From Cnuella takakiae (GTDB lineage: Bacteria > Bacteroidota > Bacteroidia > Chitinophagales > Chitinophagaceae), in contig NZ_MTFE01000010.1 in the NCBI RefSeq assembly GCF_001953305.1, positions 2,218,044 through 2,282,043 on the forward strand: DNA of 64,000 nt, read 5' to 3'. The stretch's first letter is position 1. Each line of letters begins with the position of its first letter. The notes beneath the pieces are model-generated. The model was not told the origin of the DNA. It worked only from the letters and a program-made list of their open reading frames with translations, and searched no databases. Shown here in pieces: positions 749 to 12,454 of the stretch. The translations under genes were made by a program, and so were the position numbers.

Positions 749-771
749 ATCCTGTTAATCGCCGGCAGGAT
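749..771 (+). promoter_or_regulatory. Leader hairpin with conserved loop TTAATCGCCGG, copy 1
   Basis: The stem ATCCTG/CAGGAT (6 bp) closes an 11-nt loop TTAATCGCCGG. The same loop is closed by a different but equally complementary stem at 2824-2848 (CTTGCTG/CAGCAGG). Loop identity with covarying stem bases indicates RNA structure rather than a simple DNA repeat. It lies 3 bp after the palindrome and 25 bp before an ATGAAC start, as in copy 2. Confidence 0.6.
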
Positions 772-796
772 CACCTTTAACCACAAAAGAATTTAC

Positions 797-892
797 ATGA
801 ACGCAAAATTTATCATGCTGCCAATGCAGCAGGCGATGCGTGTGCAATGGGTCCAACCGTTTGCCAGCCTTATTCTCCATTCAAGAGCATAA
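797..892 (+). CDS. Possible leader peptide ORF, counterpart of the poly-Cys leader
   Basis: ATGAACGCA opens a 31-codon frame, placed after the conserved hairpin exactly as the poly-Cys leader ORF is at 2871. Its peptide begins MNAKFIMLPMQQAMRVQW and holds no cysteine, so it cannot sense cysteine in this frame. The overlapping frame from 801 to 1007 is open and very rich in Cys codons. Either the control has decayed, another residue is sensed, or the assembly has a frameshift. Confidence 0.3.
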   Translation: MNAKFIMLPMQQAMRVQWVQPFASLILHSRA

Positions 893-2454: not shown

Positions 2455-2528
2455 TGTCACGTGGCCGAGTGGCGAGGCAGAGGCCGGCAAAGCCTTCAAC
2501 GATGGTTCGAGTCCATCCGTGACTGCCA
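2455..2528 (+). tRNA. tRNA-Cys-like gene (GCA) with an aberrant position 33
   Basis: This 74-nt cloverleaf has a 6-bp acceptor GTCACG/CGTGAC with position 1 mismatched, D arm GCC-GAGTGGCGA-GGC, anticodon stem GAGGC/GCCTT with loop CGGCAAA (anticodon GCA, Cys), variable loop CAAC, T arm GATGG-TTCGAGT-CCATC and an encoded terminal CCA. The body is that of a bacterial tRNA-Cys, but the invariant U33 is G. It starts 6 bp after the hydroxylase stop codon. It could be a second, degenerate tRNA-Cys, a regulatory tRNA mimic or an unusual functional tRNA. Which of these holds is unresolved. Confidence 0.55.
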
Positions 2529-2640
2529 GATAATGAGCAACTGTTGGTTTTTGCGCCCTTTGTTTCTACAATGGGCATTTTTTTTTAAAGGATAAAAATT
2601 GTGCTTATTGATGTGGGCTTTTTTGCAGGACCATCAATAA

Positions 2641-2728
2641 GTATCGCAAAGTGCGCCAAGGTGGCGCAGAGCAACGCAAAGGTTATTCTTTGTGCTCTTT
2701 GCGTACCCTTCGTGTTCTTTGCGATACC
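2641..2728. repeat. Word-repeat hairpin built on CGCAAAG
   Basis: The left arm reiterates CGCAAAG-like words (GTATCGCAAAG, then AACGCAAAGG) and the right arm carries their complements (CTTTGCGTACC, CTTTGCGATAC), so the 88 bp can fold into one long imperfect hairpin. It sits between the tRNA-Cys-like gene and the susC leader. A single-arm relative occurs at 44396-44440 after rpoB, and a related CCACAAAGAC version at 59048-59127. Confidence 0.65.
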
Positions 2729-2790
2729 CAAAAATATTTTAGCTCACTTGCAAGAATTATTTGGTGTATCAAAATGCCTGTAGTTAATTT

Positions 2791-2809
2791 GTCTACAAAG
2801 TTTGTAGAC
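2791..2809. promoter_or_regulatory. Operator-like palindrome, copy 2, upstream of susC leader
   Basis: GTCTACAAAGTTTGTAGAC is a perfect 9-bp inverted repeat around one central base. An AAAGTTTG box, one mismatch from TAnnTTTG, lies inside it at 2797-2804, so binding here would block transcription of the leader. It is the most symmetrical of the three copies. Confidence 0.65.
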
Positions 2810-2823
2810 TAATTAGTTGCCCA

Positions 2824-2848
2824 CTTGCTGTTAATCGCCGGCAGCAGG
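2824..2848 (+). promoter_or_regulatory. Leader hairpin with conserved loop TTAATCGCCGG, copy 2
   Basis: A 7-bp stem (CTTGCTG/CAGCAGG with one G-U pair) closes the same 11-nt loop as at 749-771. It ends 22 bp before the leader-peptide ATG. The stem differs from copy 1 but stays paired, which is covariation. I cannot match it to a known riboswitch or leader class from memory. Confidence 0.6.
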
Positions 2849-2870
2849 CAAACCTTCAAAAACAAACCAA

Positions 2871-2948
2871 ATGAACACCCTTTACACATCAACCGCTATG
2901 GCGAGCACTTCTTTAATGACCCTGCGTGTCATGCGCTGCTGTTGCTGA
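2871..2948 (+). CDS. Leader peptide ending Arg-Cys-Cys-Cys-stop
   Basis: A 25-codon ORF begins ATG AAC ACC and ends with codons CGC TGC TGT TGC TGA, that is Arg-Cys-Cys-Cys at the extreme C-terminus (last residues LRVMRCCC). Poly-Cys tails placed directly before a stop are the hallmark of cysteine-sensing leader peptides: scarcity of Cys-tRNA would stall the ribosome on the last three codons. It is followed by a multi-helix RNA (2971-3065) and then susC. The upstream AT-rich, A-rich start context is normal for Bacteroidota, which do not need a Shine-Dalgarno. A cysteine-responsive attenuator for the SusC/SusD operon is inferred. Confidence 0.65.
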   Translation: MNTLYTSTAMASTSLMTLRVMRCCC

Positions 2949-2970
2949 TTTTCTCAACCCCTTTAATTAA

Positions 2971-3065
2971 AAACTGCTGATAAGCTGTACCGGCATTACG
3001 CCCTTACGGTAATGTCCTGTAGTACCCGGCAACGCGGTACTAAACAGGATGCTTATGCGCAGTTT
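2971..3065 (+). promoter_or_regulatory. Structured multi-helix RNA between the poly-Cys leader and susC
   Basis: An outer helix pairs AAACTGC (2971-2977) with GCAGTTT (3059-3065) and continues as ATAAGC/GCTTAT. Inside are two hairpins: CATTAC/GTAATG (2994-3014), and CCTGT-AGTACC paired with GGTACT-AA-ACAGG (3016-3048) with loop CGGCAACGC. A further hairpin (about 3091-3127, arms GCCGG/CCGGC) follows before the susC start. The outer helix begins 22 nt after the leader stop codon, so a stalled ribosome could interfere with it. No U-run terminator is visible; control may act on susC translation or through Rho. Folding was done by eye. Confidence 0.5.
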
Positions 3066-3147
3066 GTTTAACTGAATTCACTGGAAAAATGCCGGGGCGG
3101 ACAACCTGTGTCCTTACCGTCCACCGGCTGCATACAAAACCAAGATC

Positions 3148-6100
3148 ATGTATCATTTATCAAGTAGACTGCTGCTTTTTTCTTTGTTGTTGCTGTTGCA
3201 GGTCTTTGCTGTTGCGCAACAGAATGTAGGCTTGTCGGGCAAGGTGACCGATGCTGCAACCAAGCAGCCACTTGCCGGTGCCACCGTTCATATCAGGGGC
3301 ACCACTCACCAGGTGGTTACCAATGCTGATGGGCAATTCTTTTTTCAAACGGGCCAGCGCCTTCCGGTGACCTACGACATCAGTTATGTAGGTTACCAGC
3401 CCATTCAATTAAGAGCCACAACCGCGCAGGTGGAAGTATCGCTGCAATCAAACAGCGGCCAGTTGGGTGATGTTATTGTAACGGGTTATAGCACCCAGAA
3501 CCGCAAGTTCATTTCTGGCTCCATTGTGTCGGTGAGTGGCAATGCGCTCAAGGATATACCAGCTGCGGGTGTAAACCAACTGCTCCAGGGCAAGGCCACC
3601 GGCGTGCAGGTGATTGCCAACTCGGGTGTACCCGGTGGGGGTGTTACCTTCCGCATCCGCGGCAACAACTCCATTAATGCTTCGGTAGATCCCCTGTATA
3701 TCGTGGATGGCGTATTTATCTCCAACACGGATCCCATTCAAACCGGCCTGGGTAACCAACAGCAATCCAATCCCATTGCCGATATCAACCCCGCTGATAT
3801 CGAAAGCATACAGGTGCTGAAAGATGCCAATGCAACGGCCATCTATGGTTCGCTGGGTGCCAACGGCGTGGTGATCATTACCACCAAACGGGGCCGGCTG
3901 AATGCAAAGGCCAAGATCAGTTTTAATACCTACCAGGGCTGGTCGCAACCCATCAACAAGTTCAAGGTAACCACGGGCCCCCAAACGGCCCTGCTCACCA
4001 ACGAGTCAAGGATCAACACCGCCATTGATAATGGCCTGCCGCCCGGAAGCGTGGTACTGCCTTTTCCCAACCCCGATACCCTGCCTACCTACGACCGCTT
4101 CAGTGGCCTGTTCCGCACGGCCCGCACCAGCAACTACGAGCTATCGGCGCAGGGTGGTACCGAAAACAGTACCTACTATGTGGGCCTCGGTTATTTCAAA
4201 CAAGAGTCGGTGGTAAGACCATCGCAGTTTGAACGGTTGTCGGCGCGCCTCAACTACGACAACTATCTCACCCGCCAGTTGAAGGTGGGCACCAGTATCA
4301 ACCTGGCCCGTACACAGCGCAATCTTAGTGGCAGCGACAACAACCCGCAGGGCGTGATCAACTCGGCACTCTTCCCAAGGTCTTACCTGCCTATTTTTAA
4401 CCCGAATGGTACCTATGCCCGCTACGGCAGTTTCGACAATCACCTGGCCCTGATCGAAAACCTGAACAACGATGCCGTGGGCTGGCGCACCATCGGCAAC
4501 CTGTACGCAGAGTATACCTTTTTACCCGGGCTGAAACTGAAAAGCAGTTGGAGCATCGACAATACCAGCGAGTACGAGAACAACTACAACAATACCCTCA
4601 TCAGTGCAGGTATTGCCACCAATGGTTCGGCAGCTTCGTACGAAACCAAGAACCTGGTGCTTACCAACGAGCAGGTGCTGACTTATATCAAGTCGTTTGG
4701 CAAGGGCCGCAAGCACAACATCAATGCACTGGTGGGTAATACACTGAACACGGTGTTGTCGCAAAACACCACAGCTACCGGTTTCGGTTTTGCTTCCAAC
4801 GACCTCACGGCTGTTTCGGTAGCGGCCACCCGGTCCGGTTCATCGTCTAGGGCAGAATCGAAGCTGGTATCCTTCTTTGGAAAGGCCAGCTACACCTTCG
4901 ACAATAAGTATACGTTTGATGGCAGCCTCCGCGCCGATGCTTCCTCCAAGTTTGGCGTCAACAACCAGTGGGGCTATTTCCCTTCGGGTGGCGTAACCTG
5001 GCGTGCCAGCCAGGAGCCCTTTATCCAAAACCTCAACCTGTTTGATGAACTGAAGTTCCGTGCCAGTGCGGGCCTGTCGGGCAACCAGAACGGCATTGGA
5101 TCCTATGCTGCACAAGGCCTTTGGGCCTCCGGCGCCAACTACCTCGAGCAGCCCGGCACTGCGCCTTCGCAACTGGCCAATCCCAACCTTACCTGGGAGA
5201 GCACCCGCCAGGTGGATGTGGGGGTGGAGTTTGCCGTGCTGAAGAACCGGCTGAACGTGGTGCTGGATTTTTACGACAAATACACCTACGACCTCCTGCT
5301 GAACGTGCCGGTGCCAAACCGATCCGGTTTTGCATCCTACCTCCAGAACTATGGCGCCGTGCGCAACAAGGGAACGGAGCTGGCCATCAATACGGTGAAC
5401 GTGGAAACCAAAGATTTCCGCTGGACGACGGATTTCAATATTTCCTGGAACCGCAACCGCATTGAGAAGCTTGCGTCGGATATCGCGCAGGGTGCTTCGG
5501 GCCGCAATATTTCCATCCTGAAACAGGGCTACCCCGTGAACTCCTTCCAGCTGTACCGCCAGCTGTACGTGGATGCACAAACCGGCAATGCAGTGTATGA
5601 AGACGTAAACAAGGATGGCGGTATCACTTCCGCCGACCGGCAGATCGTGGGCAATGCCCTGCCCAACTACACCGGCGGGCTCACCAACAACCTTTCCTAC
5701 AAGGGTTTTGACTTCAACTTCTTCTGGTACTTCCAGCAGGGCAACAAGATCATGAACATGAATGATTTCTTCCTGGTGCATGGCGGCACCCAGGCCAATA
5801 TCGGTTTTGTGCCCCGCCAGTTGGAGCGCTGGCAAAAGCCCGGCGATGTAACGGATATCCCCAGGCTCACCACCTCAAGCCTCAACCCTTCGGTTAATGG
5901 CGGCCCTGCCAACAACTATGGCGGCAATGTGGCCAACCTGAGCTCAAGGTACCTGCGCGACGGTTCGTTCCTGCGGCTGAAAACGATCTCGCTGGGATAC
6001 AACCTGCCCACAGGTGTGGTGCAGAAAGCCCGGTTCAGCTCGGCAAGGGTTTATGTACAGGCCACCAACCTGCTCACCTTTACCAACTACAACGGGCTGG

Positions 6101-6207
6101 ACCCCGAGGTGAGCTCGCAGAGCAGCAACCAGAACACCGCCGGCTACGACTGGGCCACCGTACCCCAGCCTAAAACCATCCAGGCCGGTATCAATATCAG
6201 TTTCTAA
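3148..6207 (+). CDS. SusC/RagA-type TonB-dependent outer membrane transporter
   Basis: This 1019-residue protein has a signal peptide (to AQQ near residue 25), a carboxypeptidase-regulatory-like domain (about 28-105, GKVTDAATKQPLAGATVHI), a TonB plug domain (about 110-230, with FRIRGNNSINASVDPLYIVDGV) and a large beta-barrel ending in a C-terminal aromatic (ISF). These are the SusC features. It forms the energy-driven outer-membrane pore under the SusD lid encoded 19 bp downstream. SusC/D pairs import glycans, peptides or other oligomers; the substrate cannot be read here. The leader with its poly-Cys peptide and the sulfur-type oxygenase nearby suggest a sulfur-containing nutrient rather than a glycan, and no glycoside hydrolases are present. 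Confidence 0.95.
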   Translation: MYHLSSRLLLFSLLLLLQVFAVAQQNVGLSGKVTDAATKQPLAGATVHIRGTTHQVVTNADGQFFFQTGQRLPVTYDISYVGYQPIQLRATTAQVEVSLQSNSGQLGDVIVTGYSTQNRKFISGSIVSVSGNALKDIPAAGVNQLLQGKATGVQVIANSGVPGGGVTFRIRGNNSINASVDPLYIVDGVFISNTDPIQTGLGNQQQSNPIADINPADIESIQVLKDANATAIYGSLGANGVVIITTKRGRLNAKAKISFNTYQGWSQPINKFKVTTGPQTALLTNESRINTAIDNGLPPGSVVLPFPNPDTLPTYDRFSGLFRTARTSNYELSAQGGTENSTYYVGLGYFKQESVVRPSQFERLSARLNYDNYLTRQLKVGTSINLARTQRNLSGSDNNPQGVINSALFPRSYLPIFNPNGTYARYGSFDNHLALIENLNNDAVGWRTIGNLYAEYTFLPGLKLKSSWSIDNTSEYENNYNNTLISAGIATNGSAASYETKNLVLTNEQVLTYIKSFGKGRKHNINALVGNTLNTVLSQNTTATGFGFASNDLTAVSVAATRSGSSSRAESKLVSFFGKASYTFDNKYTFDGSLRADASSKFGVNNQWGYFPSGGVTWRASQEPFIQNLNLFDELKFRASAGLSGNQNGIGSYAAQGLWASGANYLEQPGTAPSQLANPNLTWESTRQVDVGVEFAVLKNRLNVVLDFYDKYTYDLLLNVPVPNRSGFASYLQNYGAVRNKGTELAINTVNVETKDFRWTTDFNISWNRNRIEKLASDIAQGASGRNISILKQGYPVNSFQLYRQLYVDAQTGNAVYEDVNKDGGITSADRQIVGNALPNYTGGLTNNLSYKGFDFNFFWYFQQGNKIMNMNDFFLVHGGTQANIGFVPRQLERWQKPGDVTDIPRLTTSSLNPSVNGGPANNYGGNVANLSSRYLRDGSFLRLKTISLGYNLPTGVVQKARFSSARVYVQATNLLTFTNYNGLDPEVSSQSSNQNTAGYDWATVPQPKTIQAGINISF

Positions 6208-6226
6208 CGCCAACACATAACCGATC

Positions 6227-7558
6227 ATGAAACATACCCTTTTCTATAGCCTTGCTTTGCTGGCCCTTTCGTTAAGCTCCTGCAAAAAATACCTGACCGA
6301 AACGCCCAATAATGCCCTGCCTACCGGCAATGCCATCATCGATGCCGGCACCTCGCGTGCTGCCATCAACGGGGCATACGATGCGGTGCAGAACTATTAC
6401 GCTGCCAACTACCCAACCCTGGGCACCATCACCGCCGACAACGTGGTGTTCAACGGCACCCTGAGCCAGTACCTGCAGCTGGACCAGAACGCCATTCCTG
6501 CCGATAATGTAACCACCGTAGCGGCCTACCAGGGTATTTACCGCGCCATCAATTCGGCCAACAGCATCATTGCTGCTGTGCCAGGTGTGCAGGATCCCCT
6601 GCTGACGCAAGCAGAGAAAGACAAGATTCTGGGTGAAGCATATTTCATCCGTGCCCTCAGCTATTTCGACCTGGGCAGGGGCTGGGGCGGTGTGCAGATA
6701 CAACTGAAGCCAACGGAAAATTTTGAAAGCCTCAAAGGCGTAAAACGCAGCACGCTGGAACAGACCTACGACCAGGTGCTGGCCGACCTGACCAGGGCGG
6801 AGCAACTGGTGCCCGAAGATGCCACCACCCGCAACCGGGTACAGAAAAGCGCGGTGCGTGCCCTGCGTGCCCGCCTGCACCTCTACCGCAAACAATGGGC
6901 GGACGCAGCCGCTTATGCCACACAGGTGATCGACAATCCGAAATTCAGCCTGGTGTTGCCGTACAAAACCTTTTTTACCGCGCCCTTCCTTTCGCCGGAG
7001 TCGGTACTGGAACTGACTTTTTCCGTAAACGACCGCAACAGCTTCTGGAACCTCTGGTATCCCAGCTCGTTGGGCGGGCAGTTTACACTGAAGCCTTCAG
7101 CAGGTATCGTGGAAAAATTGAACAACCCCAATATTGGCGGCACCCGCAATGCCCTGTTGGCGGGCAGCGGCGCATCGGTGTACGGCACTTTGTACAACAC
7201 TTTTGCCACCAGTACCGATCCTGCCTACCTGATACGCATAGCCGAACTCTACCTAATCAGGGCTGAGGCCAGGGCACAACTAAACGACCTCGCTGGTGCC
7301 GTTGCCGACCTCAACAAGGTAAGGGCAAGGGCAGGCGTGCCGCTGCTGCCCGAAGCCGGTAAAGAAAACCTGCTGCTGGCCATCGAGGAAGAAAACAGCG
7401 TGGAGTTTGCCTTTGAAGGACACCGCTGGTTCGACCTGGTGCGCACCGGCAGGGCAGGCGCCGTACTGGGCCTCACCAATACCGATTACTGGCTTTTCCC
7501 CATTCCTTACCAGGATGTTTTGTCCGACCCGGATGTGACGCAGAATCCCGGATACTAA
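6227..7558 (+). CDS. SusD/RagB family nutrient-binding lipoprotein
   Basis: This 443-residue lipoprotein (signal MKHTLFYSLALLALSLSSC, lipobox cysteine at 19) has the SusD N-terminal TPR-like region (EAYFIRALSYFDLGRGWGGVQI) and the C-terminal SusD signature (LYLIRAEARAQLNDLAGA, EFAFEGHRWFDLVRTGRA). It is short for the family, which is usually 450-600 residues, as is common for pairs importing small substrates. It sits on the cell surface as the lid of the SusC pore and is co-transcribed with susC. Confidence 0.95.
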   Translation: MKHTLFYSLALLALSLSSCKKYLTETPNNALPTGNAIIDAGTSRAAINGAYDAVQNYYAANYPTLGTITADNVVFNGTLSQYLQLDQNAIPADNVTTVAAYQGIYRAINSANSIIAAVPGVQDPLLTQAEKDKILGEAYFIRALSYFDLGRGWGGVQIQLKPTENFESLKGVKRSTLEQTYDQVLADLTRAEQLVPEDATTRNRVQKSAVRALRARLHLYRKQWADAAAYATQVIDNPKFSLVLPYKTFFTAPFLSPESVLELTFSVNDRNSFWNLWYPSSLGGQFTLKPSAGIVEKLNNPNIGGTRNALLAGSGASVYGTLYNTFATSTDPAYLIRIAELYLIRAEARAQLNDLAGAVADLNKVRARAGVPLLPEAGKENLLLAIEEENSVEFAFEGHRWFDLVRTGRAGAVLGLTNTDYWLFPIPYQDVLSDPDVTQNPGY

Positions 7559-7688: not shown

Positions 7689-10337
7689 ATGAAACCAAGA
7701 AGATTTATACAAGCTACCCTGCAACTGGCGGCAGCATTGCTGCTAACCGGTAGTCAGCTGCTGGCACAGCAGGACTACTATTTTCCCAACAGCGGCTCTT
7801 TTGATCCCAAAGTGCCCACCCCCGAGCAGTTCCTGGGTTACCCCATCGGCTCGCATTATACGCGGCACGACGAGATCGTTGCCTATTTTAAAGAGCTGGC
7901 CCGAACCTCCAACCGGGTACATGTAGAGGTGATCGGCAAAACCTACGAGGAGCGCCCGCTGCTGATTGCCACCATCACTTTGCCTGAAAACTACAGCCGC
8001 CTGGAAAGCATCCGGCAGGAGCACATCACCCTTGCCGATCCCGCCAAGCCGGTGATCCCGGCAACGGCTCCCGTGGTGGTGCACCTGGGCTACAGTGTAC
8101 ACGGCAATGAAACCTCCAGCGGCGAAACAGGTCTTTTAACGGCCTATTACCTGGCTGCCAACCAAAGCGCCGAAACGCAGCAATGGCTGAAGGAAGCCGT
8201 GGTGTTCATCGACCCCTCGCAAAACCCCGATGGCCGCGACCGTGCCGCCAACTGGCACAACTCGTATAAATCATCTCCGCCTGTGGCCGACCCGCTGGAT
8301 AAGGAGCACGTAGAGGCTTGGCCAGGCGGTAGAGCCAACCACTACCTCAATAACCTGAACCGCGACTGGCTGGCGCTTACCCAAACGGAGAGCCGCAGCC
8401 GCATCGAGTTCTTCCACAAGTGGTATCCCAACGTGCAGATCGATTTTCACGAGCAGGGTGCCAACTCTACCTATTATTTCGAACCCACACCCAAAAGGCA
8501 CCAAAGCCCCATCATCCCGCAGTCGGTGTACGACTTCAACGCGGTGCTGGCAAAGTACCAGGCCAAGGCGCTGGACGATATCGGGTCGCTGTATTTTACC
8601 AAGGAGAACTATGATAACCTGTCGCCCATCTATGGCTCTACCTATCCAAAATTTTACGGCGGGGTAGGGGCCACGTTTGAGCAGGCCAGCTCAAGGGGCC
8701 TGGTGCAGGAAACCTCCAATGGCACGCTTACTTTTCCCTTCTCCATCCGCAACCACCTGGCTACCGGGCTGGCTACCATCCGCGGGGCGGTAGCAGAGAA
8801 GGAAGGTTTGTTCCGCCTGCAGAAAGCCTTTTTCCAATCTGCACTCGACCAGGCAAAGGCCGGCAGCACCAAGTGGTACCTGTTTGGCGACAGCCGCGAC
8901 GAAAGCCTGACCCAGAACTTCCTGGATCTGCTGCTGAAGCATCGCGTACAGGTATATGAGCTGAACGATGCCGTAACTGCCGAAGGCAAACGTTTTGAAA
9001 AGGGCAAGGCCTATGTGGTGCCCGCTTTGCAGCCCAATTTTCGGATCGTGCACTCCCTGTTTGAAGAGATCAAACTTACCGACAGCATCTATTACGATAA
9101 TACCGGCTGGTCGGTGATCCATGCTTACGGTTTGCTGTATGCGAAAATTGGCAGCCCTACTTTTGCCAAGGGCGATGCGGTAAAAAGCACCCGCCAGCTG
9201 GCTGGTTCGGTAGATGGCGGCAAGTCGGCCTATGCCTACCTGCTCAACTGGTCGGATTACAATGCATCGAAAGCGCTCTACCTGTTGCAGCAAAAGGGTG
9301 TACTGGTAAAAACTTCCTTCAAGCCCTTTACCGCCAATACGCCGCAGGGCAAACAGGCCTTTAGTTTTGGTACCCTGGTGATACCTGTAGCGGGTCAAGC
9401 CATACAGCCCGACTCGCTGTACCGCGCCCTGCAGCAAACCGCAGCAGCGGCCCAGGTGCGCATCACTTCTGCTGCCAGTGGCTTTAGTGCCGAAGGCATC
9501 GATCTGGGCAGCAATAATATCAAGGCCCTGCGCCAGCCGCAGATCGCACTGGCCTTTGGACAGGGCGTGAATTACGAGGAAGCGGGCCAGGTTTGGTTCC
9601 TGCTGAACCAGCACCTGGGACTGCCGGTAGTGAAGATTGACGTGAGCAATTTTGGACAGGCTTCGCTGAAAAAATACAATACCATCATCCTGGTAGGTGG
9701 TAACTACAACAGCTGGGAAAAACCGGTAACGGAAAAGATCAAGGGCTGGGTGGCCGACGGCGGTACGCTGATTACTTTCCAGAATGCATCGGCATGGGCC
9801 AGCAAGCAGGGCATCACTTCCGAGCAGGTATATGTTGATTCTACGCTCATCAACCGCACGGCGGGTGTGGTGCCCAGTGAGGCAGGTGCCGCAAAAGGCA
9901 GCAATGCCGCCGAGCGCCTCGATTATATCCGTCAGGAAGACGTGGAGGGCTCCAAGCGCATCAATGGCGCCATCTTCCTTACCGATGTGGATACTACCAA
10001 CCCCATTGCCTTTGGCATCAACAGCCGCAAGCTGTTCATCAACAAAAACGGCAGCACACTGCTGGTGCCCAGCAAGAACAAATACGGCACTGTGGCCCAA
10101 TACACCAGCAATGCCTTCATCAGTGGTTATGCACCCCGCCAAAACATCGGGAAGGTAAATAATTCGGCAGCCATCCTGACGGCTTCGGAAGGGCTGGGCA
10201 AGGTGGTGCTTTTTGCCGATGACCCTACCTACCGCAACTACTGGCTGGGTACCAACCGCCTCTTGCTGAACGCCATCTTTTTCTCCAACCTGATCTCCGG
10301 CGGCAGGCAGGCCATTGCTGCCGAAGCGGAAGAATAA
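7689..10337 (+). CDS. Exported M14 family zinc carboxypeptidase-like protein with amidotransferase-like C-terminal domain
   Basis: This 882-residue protein has a signal peptide (cleavage near LLAQQ, residue 27). The M14 metallopeptidase domain (about 45-350) shows the zinc ligands His138 and Glu141 in SVHGNETSSGE and His254 in IDFHEQG, plus an NPDGRDRAN substrate-binding segment. The C-terminal part (about 610-870) contains AFGQGVNYEEAG and TIILVGGNYNSW, resembling the class I amidotransferase-like fold seen in Bacteroidota M14 proteins; no catalytic Cys is evident. It probably trims peptides in the periplasm or outside the cell. It follows susD by 130 bp on the same strand and precedes the third operator, so it likely belongs to the susCD transcript. 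Confidence 0.88.
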   Translation: MKPRRFIQATLQLAAALLLTGSQLLAQQDYYFPNSGSFDPKVPTPEQFLGYPIGSHYTRHDEIVAYFKELARTSNRVHVEVIGKTYEERPLLIATITLPENYSRLESIRQEHITLADPAKPVIPATAPVVVHLGYSVHGNETSSGETGLLTAYYLAANQSAETQQWLKEAVVFIDPSQNPDGRDRAANWHNSYKSSPPVADPLDKEHVEAWPGGRANHYLNNLNRDWLALTQTESRSRIEFFHKWYPNVQIDFHEQGANSTYYFEPTPKRHQSPIIPQSVYDFNAVLAKYQAKALDDIGSLYFTKENYDNLSPIYGSTYPKFYGGVGATFEQASSRGLVQETSNGTLTFPFSIRNHLATGLATIRGAVAEKEGLFRLQKAFFQSALDQAKAGSTKWYLFGDSRDESLTQNFLDLLLKHRVQVYELNDAVTAEGKRFEKGKAYVVPALQPNFRIVHSLFEEIKLTDSIYYDNTGWSVIHAYGLLYAKIGSPTFAKGDAVKSTRQLAGSVDGGKSAYAYLLNWSDYNASKALYLLQQKGVLVKTSFKPFTANTPQGKQAFSFGTLVIPVAGQAIQPDSLYRALQQTAAAAQVRITSAASGFSAEGIDLGSNNIKALRQPQIALAFGQGVNYEEAGQVWFLLNQHLGLPVVKIDVSNFGQASLKKYNTIILVGGNYNSWEKPVTEKIKGWVADGGTLITFQNASAWASKQGITSEQVYVDSTLINRTAGVVPSEAGAAKGSNAAERLDYIRQEDVEGSKRINGAIFLTDVDTTNPIAFGINSRKLFINKNGSTLLVPSKNKYGTVAQYTSNAFISGYAPRQNIGKVNNSAAILTASEGLGKVVLFADDPTYRNYWLGTNRLLLNAIFFSNLISGGRQAIAAEAEE

Positions 10338-10379: not shown

Positions 10380-10398
10380 GTCTATTATTTTTGTAGAC
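10380..10398. promoter_or_regulatory. Operator-like palindrome, copy 3, before the ligase/monooxygenase genes
   Basis: GTCTATTATTTTTGTAGAC carries one change in the left arm relative to copies 1 and 2. A perfect TAnnTTTG box (TATTTTTG) lies inside it at 10386-10393, so a start near 10400 is expected. It splits the locus into two transcription units under one regulator. Confidence 0.6.
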
Positions 10399-10446: not shown

Positions 10447-11421
10447 ATGACAATGGCCCAACCTGTTGGAATTTTTTTCGAGCATCCCGAATGGTTCAAG
10501 AAATTGTTTGCCCGGCTTGATGAACGGGGTATCCCTTACGAAAAGCTGCATGCCGGTTTCCACCGTTTCAACCCGCTGGAAACAGAGCGCAAATACAGCC
10601 TGGTGTTCAACCGCATCAGCTCCTCGGCCTATACCCGTGGGCATGGGCAGGGCATCTTTTATTCCAAGGCATTTATTGCCTACATCGAACAGAACGGCGT
10701 TCCCGTGATCAATGGCTCGAAAGCAACGGAGATCGAAACCTCCAAGGCTTTGCAGCTGCTCTTGTTCCAGCGCCTTGGTCTTAAATTTCCCAAGAGCATC
10801 GTGGTGAACCATGCTTCGCAGATTTTGGATGCAGCGAAAGAACTGCAGTTTCCTATTGCCGTCAAGCCCAATATCGGCGGAGCGGGGGCAGGCATCATCC
10901 GGTTCAATACCCTGGCAAGCCTGGAAGAAGCGGTGGAGAGCGACAGCATCAGCCTGGGTATTGATGAAACTGCCCTGGTACAGGAGTTCATTCCTGCCCG
11001 TGGCGGCCATATCAACCGTGTGGAAACCCTCAATGGCAAGTTCCTCTATGCTATCAAAGTGTTTACTACCGGTGAAAGCTTTAACCTCTGTCCTGCCGAG
11101 ATCTGCCAGGTGCCGCAGGCTCAGGAAGAAGCGCCGCAAGCCATCGGCGAGGTTTGTATGACCACAGCCGTAAAAAAAGGTCTGAAGGTGGAAGCATTCA
11201 CACCGCCCACAGCCGTGATCGAAGCCGTAGAGCAAATTGTAAAAGAAGCCAATATCAATGTAGGTGGTATTGAATACATCGTGGACGACCGCAATGGTGA
11301 TATCCTGTTCTACGATATCAATGCCCTGTCCAACTTTATTGCCGATGCCGAGCAGGTGATTGGCTTTGATCCCTTTGTAAACTTGGTAGATTATATCGAA
11401 ACCCTGATCAAGAACCCTTAA
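10447..11421 (+). CDS. ATP-grasp (RimK-like) ligase family protein
   Basis: This 324-residue soluble protein has the ATP-grasp fold: an N-terminal domain (MAQPVGIFFEHPEW), a RimK-like central lobe with FPIAVKPNIGGAGAGI (about 136-151, nucleotide-binding Lys and Gly-rich loop), ALVQEFIPARGGHINRVETLNG, and the metal-binding end GDILFYDINALSNF. Such enzymes join a carboxylate to an amine or thiol through an acyl phosphate. It starts 49 bp after the third operator and ends 10 bp before an SsuD-like monooxygenase, so they are co-transcribed. The ATG at 10453 is an alternative start. The product is unknown; a role in handling a sulfur-containing or amino-acid-like substrate is inference from context. 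Confidence 0.85.
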   Translation: MTMAQPVGIFFEHPEWFKKLFARLDERGIPYEKLHAGFHRFNPLETERKYSLVFNRISSSAYTRGHGQGIFYSKAFIAYIEQNGVPVINGSKATEIETSKALQLLLFQRLGLKFPKSIVVNHASQILDAAKELQFPIAVKPNIGGAGAGIIRFNTLASLEEAVESDSISLGIDETALVQEFIPARGGHINRVETLNGKFLYAIKVFTTGESFNLCPAEICQVPQAQEEAPQAIGEVCMTTAVKKGLKVEAFTPPTAVIEAVEQIVKEANINVGGIEYIVDDRNGDILFYDINALSNFIADAEQVIGFDPFVNLVDYIETLIKNP

Positions 11422-11431
11422 CAACAAACAC

Positions 11432-12454
11432 ATGAGATTTGGATACTGGCTGCCCGTATTTGGCGGGTGGCTGCGCAACGTGGACGACGAACAGATGGAA
11501 ACCAGCTGGAGCTATGTAAAAAAGCTGGCCCAGCGGAGCGAGCAGATCGGGTTCGACCTGACCCTGATCGCTGAATTAATGCTGAATGATATCAAGGGCG
11601 AAAGCGCACCATCGCTGGATGCATGGTCTACCGCCGCTGCCCTTGCTGCGGTAACCGAAAGACTGGAACTGATGGTGGCGGTGCGCCCCACTTTTCACAA
11701 CCCGGCCATCCTGGCCAAGCAGGCAGCCAATATCGCCAACATCAGCGGCGGCAGGCTTTCGCTGAACGTGGTGTCCTCGTGGTGGAAAGAAGAAGCCCTG
11801 AAATACGGCATCCAGTACGAGCAGCACGACGACCGCTATGCCCGCATGAGCGAGTGGGTAAAGATCGTTACCTCCATGTGGGAAGAAGACGGCTTTTCCT
11901 TCGAAGGCAAGTACTACAGTGTTCAGGATACCATCCTCCAACCCAAGCCCCTGGTGAAGCCGCCCATTTATGCCGGTGGCGAATCGGAAGCGGGCAAAAA
12001 CCTTATTGCCCAGGTATGCGATGGCTATGTGATGCATGGCGATAGTCCTGCAGTAATTGGCGCCCGCATTGCCGATGTAAAGACCCGCCGCGAAAAGCTT
12101 GGACTGCCACCCATGACCTATGGTGTTGCGGCCTACTCCGTGGTGCGGAATACGGAAGCCGAGGTGAAGAAAGAGATCGAACGCATTACCAATGTGCAGG
12201 CATCTGCAGCTGGATACAACAACTACCAGCAATGGCTGAACGGTACCCAGTTGGAGAAGCGCGTGTCGCTGGAAGATTATTCCGTTTCCAACCGCGGCCT
12301 GCGTACCGGCCTGGCCGGCACACCCGAGCAGATCGCTGAAAAGATCTACCAGTTTGAAAAAGCAGGGGTCGATTTCTTTTTGCTCCAGTGCAGCCCGCAG
12401 CTTGAGGAGATGGAGCGTTTTGCCGAAGCAGTGATTGCGCCACAGCTAGCTTAA
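11432..12454 (+). CDS. LLM-class flavin-dependent monooxygenase, alkanesulfonate (SsuD)/sulfone type
   Basis: This 340-residue protein aligns by eye over its whole length with the luciferase-like monooxygenase family: FGYWLPVFGGWLRNVDDE at the N-terminus, GFDLTLIAELMLNDIKG, SLNVVSSWWKEEALKYG, HDDRYARMSEW, PIYAGGESEAGK and a C-terminal SNRGLRTGLAGTPEQIAEKI. These are close to the SsuD/dimethylsulfone monooxygenase branch, which uses reduced FMN and O2 to release sulfite from sulfonates or to cleave sulfones. No flavin reductase gene or ABC sulfonate transporter lies nearby; the SusC/D pair could supply outer-membrane uptake. The family is clear; the exact substrate is not. Confidence 0.88.
   Translation: MRFGYWLPVFGGWLRNVDDEQMETSWSYVKKLAQRSEQIGFDLTLIAELMLNDIKGESAPSLDAWSTAAALAAVTERLELMVAVRPTFHNPAILAKQAANIANISGGRLSLNVVSSWWKEEALKYGIQYEQHDDRYARMSEWVKIVTSMWEEDGFSFEGKYYSVQDTILQPKPLVKPPIYAGGESEAGKNLIAQVCDGYVMHGDSPAVIGARIADVKTRREKLGLPPMTYGVAAYSVVRNTEAEVKKEIERITNVQASAAGYNNYQQWLNGTQLEKRVSLEDYSVSNRGLRTGLAGTPEQIAEKIYQFEKAGVDFFLLQCSPQLEEMERFAEAVIAPQLA

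Follow-up and report, generated by a model that had tools for sequence, protein, structure and literature searches.

Introduction

Leader attenuators of the trp/his type carry control codons for the relevant amino acid in a short leader. In E. coli, the nascent tnaC leader peptide senses tryptophan, and the ribosome stalled beside the tnaC stop codon shields the downstream RNA from Rho. SusC/D systems, the main nutrient importers of Bacteroidota, are usually discussed together with glycan-sensing regulators. A B. thetaiotaomicron map mentions leader-like short ORFs in general. A Flavobacterium psychrophilum transcriptome study mentions leader-peptide attenuation before amino-acid biosynthesis operons (PMC9723704). 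In mycobacteria, polycysteine leaderless short ORFs act as attenuators that respond to cysteine (Canestrari et al., 2020, Mol Microbiol 114:93, doi 10.1111/mmi.14498, as summarised in PMC9031893; also cited in PMC13236596). A limited literature search, which left subscription journals mostly uncovered, found no poly-Cys leader in Bacteroidota. The preliminary description of the DNA studied here knew such leaders from actinobacteria and not from SusC/D operons.

Here we describe a short ORF with consecutive Cys codons that lies upstream of, and is codirectional with, a SusC/D operon of Cnuella takakiae, within a 64-kb stretch of DNA (64,000 nucleotides; hereafter the window). Like the mycobacterial polycysteine ORFs, it places consecutive Cys codons in a short ORF of an operon 5′ leader, and we propose that Cys supply is read by elongation speed. 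Unlike them, it belongs to another phylum, precedes a SusC/D importer, lies under a palindromic operator and, judged by the distance from operator to ATG, is not leaderless. With leaders of the trp/his type it shares control codons for an amino acid in a short leader, but here terminators do not exceed chance and the control codons are not paired beyond chance. The likeness to tnaC lies in the proposed stop-adjacent stall, which would shield RNA just downstream from Rho; the proposed cause of the stall is scarce Cys-tRNA rather than the sensing of tryptophan by a nascent peptide.

Results

The preliminary description reported an operator-like palindrome, a conserved hairpin, a 25-codon ORF ending Arg-Cys-Cys-Cys-stop and a multi-helix RNA in front of susC. 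The palindrome and the ORF are both present as described (Table 1). Among the window's 812 ATG ORFs of 5–60 codons, counted on both strands with distinct stops, only this one ends in CCC, and its Cys codons directly precede the stop, forming a candidate stop-adjacent stall site. The ATG lies 61 nt from the operator; the corresponding spacing is just 2–29 nt in 14 relatives.

Table 1. Features of the window (positions are those of the 64-kb stretch)
Feature	Position	Strand	Remarks
Sister operator	728-746	no strand	Upstream of fatty-acid hydroxylase gene (PF04116)
Sister element	752-892	+	Hairpin-1 copy 752-768; ORF 797-892 without Cys tail
Candidate -7 promoter box, TTAATTTG	2784-2791	+	One base off TAnnTTTG; adjoins operator
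Palindrome GTCTACAAAGTTTGTAGAC	2791-2809	no strand	Putative operator of a sulfur-linked regulator
Hairpin 1, loop TTAATCGCC	2817-2851	+	5′ of leader ORF
Leader peptide ORF, MNTLYTSTAMASTSLMTLRVMRCCC-stop	2871-2948	+	25 codons, RCCC end; Cys tail kept in relatives
GGCGAG, degenerate form of mid-ORF site GGCGAT	2900-2905	+	31 nt before first Cys codon
Cys codons TGC TGT TGC	2937-2945	+	Directly 5′ of stop TGA (2946-2948)
Structured RNA linker, leader stop to susC	2949-3147	+	199 nt; no terminator; no hairpin-2 match
susC, TonB-linked outer-membrane protein	3148-6207	+	TIGR04056, 790.3 bits (cut-off 368.25)
susD-like lipoprotein	6227-7558	+	PF07980 (101.2, cut-off 23.1) and PF14322
M14 zinc carboxypeptidase-like protein	7689-10337	+	PF00246
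Second operator, GTCTATTATTTTTGTAGAC	10380-10398 (C1:2228423-2228441)	no strand	2 mismatches; 5′ of ATP-grasp gene
ATP-grasp (RimK-like) ligase	10447-11421	+	Query of relatives searches
Luciferase-like monooxygenase (LLM)	11432-12454	+	Nearest SfnG and SsuD (sulfone, sulfonate)

The putative promoter box is one base off TAnnTTTG, which we take to be the consensus of the Bacteroidota -7 box, and of the 20 leaders for which an operator was found within 90 nt, 13 have an exact TAnnTTTG directly next to it. No sigma-70 type promoter was found in window positions 2550-3300. The pattern GTCTAC-N3..9-GTAGAC occurs twice in the window, compared with 0.00 times in 100 shuffles, and at 5 places in the 5.7 Mb genome, compared with 3 for the reversed control pattern. 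At up to two mismatches to GTCTACNAANTTNGTAGAC the genome has seven operator sites (reversed controls were run at exact arms and at up to three mismatches). At up to three mismatches the search returned 19 places, against 25 for the reversed control; as this is the noise level, sites seen solely at three mismatches were left uncounted. One such site, C1:2465524, has a TauE-family gene on one side and on the other a SusC-like gene, behind which lies a gene for a Cys/Met-metabolism enzyme.

The seven sites are those of the present SusC/D operon, its ATP-grasp-LLM half, a sulfatase operon, another SusC/D operon, a TonB receptor-like gene beside molybdopterin (sulfite-oxidase type) and PF03601 genes, a chromate transporter gene and the fatty-acid hydroxylase gene. 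Judged from the neighboring genes, they lie mostly at sulfur-linked loci, the chromate transporter and hydroxylase genes not being plainly so. In relatives, an operator with at most 3 of its 12 arm bases changed precedes 15 of the 16 leaders of SusC orthologues, and operators were found for at least 20 of 36 leaders in a search that reached 90 nt upstream of the leader ATG.

The claim that the hairpin is conserved held in part. Hairpin 1 is present, and its core CTGTTAATCGCCGGCAG, at 2828-2844, is repeated at 752-768. The loop TTAATCGCC is common to four copies in the same genome, to G064, which has a variant of the hairpin, and to Niastella, which has the same core; it follows four of the seven operator sites. 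It is not general among relatives. With at most one mismatch the hairpin occurs at 37 places in 32 of 244 family genomes (2 places for the reversed control), four of them the elements of the same genome; at the 30 hairpin-matching loci that were read, a leader was found only at the one from this genome, which is also the sole match among 118 genomes to the combined pattern of operator plus hairpin.

Downstream, both family models place the SusC and SusD proteins above their cut-offs (Table 1), so that the pair is a SusC/D pair. The LLM scored 239.8 bits with TIGR04021 (cut-off 382.95) and 169.7 bits with TIGR03565 (cut-off 518.2); an assignment as SfnG dimethylsulfone monooxygenase was rejected because the TIGR04021 score is below its cut-off. 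By similarity, the operon cargo is sulfur-related, with an SfnG/SsuD-like LLM here and a sulfatase and FGE in a sister operon. That operon, at C1:1867326, has the leader MNFGRTISMSSVAMCNCATPPARMCCC-stop (RMCCC end) 5′ of genes for SusC, SusD, a PF00884 sulfatase and a PF03781 FGE, with a further protein, just below the PF06439 cut-off, between sulfatase and FGE. A leader with a CSCCS-stop end precedes another SusC/D pair at C1:95011; with that of the window, the genome thus has three Cys-tailed leaders in all.

Relatives were queried with the ATP-grasp protein, which 5 of 157 family genomes have, and the best 80 of 174 confirmed relatives were taken as loci. Among these best 80, all seven SusC orthologues of at least 69% identity (from Sediminibacterium, a Chitinophagaceae bin, Flavisolibacter, Hufsiella, Ferruginibacter and two Niastella) have a short ORF ending in CCC to CCCCC 70–230 nt before susC, and in five of the seven an exact CTAC...GTAG palindrome lies ahead of this ORF. 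A SusC search of 294 family genomes, with a match in 22, added further loci. A sense ATG ORF with at least three Cys in its last six residues is present in 24 of 39 SusC upstream regions, as compared with 0.20 in shuffles (30 rounds, maximum 2) and 2 on the reverse strand; this count left out L144-L146 (copies), SusC proteins of at most 900 aa or aligned over at most 800 residues, and upstream regions shorter than 300 nt or containing N. The 24 comprise 14 of 18 close orthologues (shuffles 0.10), 9 of 15 homologues below 50% identity, 0 of 5 at 50–60%, and the sister locus L009. When all amino acids were compared in leader tails, cysteine alone stood out, the next being Leu (8 vs. 3.5).

Some close relatives depart from this pattern. 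Leaders are absent at L147 and L153, SusC orthologues of 68–70% identity, and two close orthologues below the threshold, L148 and L150, show weaker tails, RCC and CCFTTCY. Of five SusC homologues with 53–57% identity (Hymenobacter, Spirosoma, Dyadobacter), none has three Cys in the last six residues; at Dyadobacter L127, an ORF with an SCC end was seen by eye.

An alignment of 11 leaders, chosen out of 35 by leaving out weak tails and near-duplicates, has only M1 and CCC invariant, over lengths of 11–44 residues. The Cys tract is thus kept while the rest of the peptide varies, which argues for a leader read by its codons rather than a functional small protein. Among close relatives leader bodies are shared, examples being Niastella and G064, L155 and L156, and L098 and L103. 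Lack of conservation of the ORF or its Cys tail had been named beforehand as the outcome that would count against the attenuator; instead, the tails recur before orthologous and paralogous SusC/D operons. Cys-ending leaders were found in Chitinophagaceae, Sphingobacteriaceae (Hufsiella), Hymenobacteraceae and one of two Flavobacteriia loci.

Some paralogous SusC leaders (L155, L156, L157, L160, L162 and L163, also L164) are accompanied by a different arrangement, a hairpin with a TGTTNGCGCAG- or TGTTGCGAGCA-type loop and then a AACAAGGC-type box; in the first six, the loop lies 59–98 nt before susC. The core of this paralogue hairpin, TGTTSGCGCAGT...AACAAGGC, has 7 matches in 294 genomes, 5 of which (G025, G140, G171, G239 and G242) are known SusC loci by place.

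Leaders also precede other genes of the operon. Where SusC is missing, the leader is found before the M14 gene (L100) or a TlpA-like gene (L102). In Hymenobacteraceae, an ATG leader with three Cys in the last eight residues precedes 8 of 25 ATP-grasp genes (shuffles 0.28), and another 8 of the 25 are without any run of three Cys codons; most of the remainder have Cys runs whose frames begin with GTG or start beyond the 350-nt region. A leader before the ATP-grasp gene is also present in Pontibacter (seven Cys), Rufibacter, Sabulibacter and Salegentibacter. By the same count, leaders were found at 0 of 9 loci in other Cytophagales (the Pontibacter, Rufibacter and Sabulibacter starts fall just outside 350 nt), 1 of 2 in Flavobacteriia, 0 of 20 in Chitinophagales plus Sphingobacteriales and 0 of 20 in other phyla. 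The SusC and ATP-grasp counts are to be compared with their different thresholds in mind (last six and last eight residues), and both cover ATG starts only, so that GTG-start or longer leaders are missed. At L061/L113 and L064-L066, the ATP-grasp and LLM genes are present and the leader is absent.

At five Acidobacteria loci (L106, L109, L110, L121 and L129), Cys-rich frames such as MAMCCCMCMC and MAMCMCMCCC stand before the ATP-grasp gene, with a stop 96–117 nt upstream of it; the Cys run is internal and not at the ORF end.

The multi-helix RNA reported before susC is borne out for the window, where positions 2949-3147 fold with -60.6 kcal/mol (z -3.49; none of 200 shuffles matched this). It is not a general feature: 13 of 16 orthologue linkers are not clearly better folded than shuffles. 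Linkers with z below -2 follow 10 of 35 leaders, including 3 of the 16 orthologues, the window among them. Orthologue linkers are 74–144 nt long except that of the window, at 202 nt with the stop codon counted. The folding counts, like those of operators, C/G content, pairing and terminators, cover loci with a leader candidate only; a minor additional candidate at each of L154 and L157 was left out of the operator, pairing/folding and terminator counts, and that of L154 also out of the C/G count. In the window, only tRNAs reached a curated Rfam score. A riboswitch or other known cis-regulatory family was considered for the leader and rejected, as matches in 2550-3200 were far below the gathering scores.

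In L009, L166, L186 and L187 there is a second hairpin 3′ of the leader, whose invariant 7-nt loop GGCGATT is exactly complementary to AATCGCC of hairpin 1. Its long stem has 28 predicted pairs, 8 of them changed on both sides among the four sequences. A 15-nt core of hairpin 2 has 4 matches in 394 genomes (1 for the reversed control), all of them Cys-tailed SusC leaders with hairpin 1, and a covariance model matched in 2 of 147 genomes. In all four, the leader ORF also contains a site, GGCGAT, that complements the hairpin-1 loop, 28–34 nt before the first tail Cys codon (the leader of L187 being represented in this measurement by L135). In these sister elements the loop of hairpin 1 thus looks, from its complementarities, to have two competing partners, the choice depending on ribosomes on the leader. 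The loop pairing itself is invariant in the four sequences and so shows no covariation, and pairing of hairpin 1 was modestly unusual against shuffled linkers in L009 (7 of 200) and L166 (9 of 200) and not unusual in the window (29 of 200) or at the element at 728 (43 of 200). Because the window copy has no hairpin-2 match and its ORF site reads only GGCGAG, we make no claim of a kissing-loop switch for the window.

Discussion

As many relatives have Cys-ending ORFs in front of this operon and of related sulfur-scavenging operons, the locus very probably carries a cysteine-shortage switch: a leader-peptide attenuator that senses cysteine before a sulfur-scavenging SusC/D operon, under a sulfur-linked operator. 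The preliminary description had read the locus as a cysteine attenuator, and the comparative evidence strongly supports that reading through the recurrence of the Cys tail, the varying peptide bodies and the sulfur-related cargo. Several observations fit it less well. L147, L153, the five SusC homologues of 53–57% identity, L061/L113 and L064-L066 have no qualifying leader, the sister element at 728 lacks a Cys tail, and two of the seven operator sites (chromate transporter and hydroxylase) are not plainly at sulfur genes.

In the mechanism that we infer, transcription would start at a promoter whose -7 box extends into the palindrome, and a regulator could thereby gate initiation. The nascent RNA would encode the 25-residue leader, whose last three codons are Cys. 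When Cys-tRNA is ample, the ribosome would finish the leader and leave at the stop, exposing the linker, and downstream expression would be attenuated. When Cys-tRNA is scarce, the ribosome would stall on the Cys codons beside the stop, and its footprint over the stop and the first linker bases would prevent attenuation, allowing susC-susD and the sulfur genes to be expressed.

How a stalled ribosome would prevent attenuation is the least certain step. We tentatively favor a tnaC-like shielding of a Rho loading site over a translational switch through RNA structure or protection of the mRNA. A tnaC/Rho-like step fits the finding that 26 of 35 leaders end in Cys, with Cys codons mostly abutting the stop, and that C exceeds G over the first 40 nt 3′ of the stop in 16 of 18 linkers (a set that includes the leaders before M14 in L100 and the TlpA-like gene in L102); as C also outnumbers G in the ORFs (16 of 18) and over the final 30 nt ahead of the gene (18 of 18), this excess speaks only weakly for Rho. 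The strong fold of the window linker, unlike 13 of the 16 orthologue linkers, is not predicted by a pure Rho-site model, and a translational effect is possible, more so in the window, where the linker is so folded. In classical trp-type attenuation, the Cys codons would instead form an arm of alternative hairpins that make or break an intrinsic terminator before susC. Control codons in the leader would suit such a scheme, as would structured RNA 3′ of the leader in the window and after the 10 of 35 leaders with z below -2. However, no intrinsic terminator-like site was found in 2550-3300, such sites are at chance level elsewhere (5 of 35 linkers, compared with 3.15 in shuffles, range 0–6; 1 of 16 orthologue linkers), and pairing of the Cys codons with the linker is no better than in shuffles (P at most 5% in 2 of 35 leaders, mean z -0.04), which, with codons that mostly abut the stop, makes trp-type attenuation improbable.

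It is somewhat doubtful that control is by translational attenuation, in which ribosome position would pick the partner of the hairpin-1 loop (the ORF site or the hairpin-2 loop) and so open or close the susC start region. The exact loop complementarity, the GGCGAT site and the two-sided stem changes in L009, L166, L186 and L187 argue for it, as does the restriction of the hairpin-2 core to Cys-tailed leaders. The scheme is limited to four sequences, with a hairpin-2 model that matches in just two genomes and loop pairing that is modest against shuffles in L009 and L166 and unremarkable in the window and at 728; in the window, hairpin 2 has no match and the ORF site reads GGCGAG. It is very improbable that the ORF arose by chance or encodes a conserved small protein with a function of its own. 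Close relatives share leader bodies, as would be expected of a functional peptide, but the frequency of Cys tails is far above that in shuffles, and distant loci keep M1 and CCC alone at widely differing lengths.

Returning to the cysteine-sensing leader, a wider scheme can be envisioned, which we consider unlikely as a whole. Organosulfur import in much of Bacteroidota would be under two layers, with a sulfur regulator acting at the promoter and ribosomes stalling on Cys codons of the leader. In one lineage the stalled ribosome, or a queue behind it 28–34 nt upstream, would cover the ORF site and hand the loop of the 5′ hairpin to the second hairpin through a 7-base kissing interaction, and paralogous tRNA-Cys with mismatched 1:72 pairs near the operons would be dedicated supply or sensing tRNAs.

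If the cysteine-sensing reading is correct, a Cys-codon leader ties outer-membrane uptake by SusC/D to internal sulfur status, and poly-Cys attenuation extends from actinobacteria to another phylum. It would also offer a genomic signature that is simple to search for and that marks sulfur-dedicated SusC/D operons without an assigned substrate.

Some further tRNA genes were seen in the course of this analysis. Four extra tRNA-Cys-like genes lie near three leader elements, two in the window (2455-2528 and 1118-1188) and two at L009 (14194-14266 and 14663-14734), the latter behind the operon, with a normal tRNA-Cys located separately at C1:2915041. The anticodon loop carries G33 in two of the four; one, called tRNA-Ser, has the anticodon GCU and no long arm; and the 1:72 pairs are A-G, T-T or T-G. 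tRNA-Cys genes with an A1-G72 mismatch are present at L098 (1264-1335), L099 (2356-2427) and L100 (5696-5767), where they follow the TlpA-like gene of the sulfur operon after ~6 nt and share its strand, and at L102 (6768-6839), where the tRNA gene is more distant and neighbors a gene with 62% identity to the fatty-acid hydroxylase of the window. Such tRNA-Cys genes also occur at L190 and L192 (1501-1572 in both). In G255 the palindrome CTACTATTTTGGTAG lies ~80 nt before one of them, in G038 one lies ~700 nt before a sulfatase-like gene, and in G141 (L189) neither a palindrome nor a sulfatase-like gene was seen nearby; each of these three genomes has a second tRNA-Cys-like match. At L133 (9695-9767, Armatimonadetes) and L142 (9810-9885, Acidobacteria), a tRNA-Cys gene lies ~220 nt and <120 nt, respectively, before the ATP-grasp gene.
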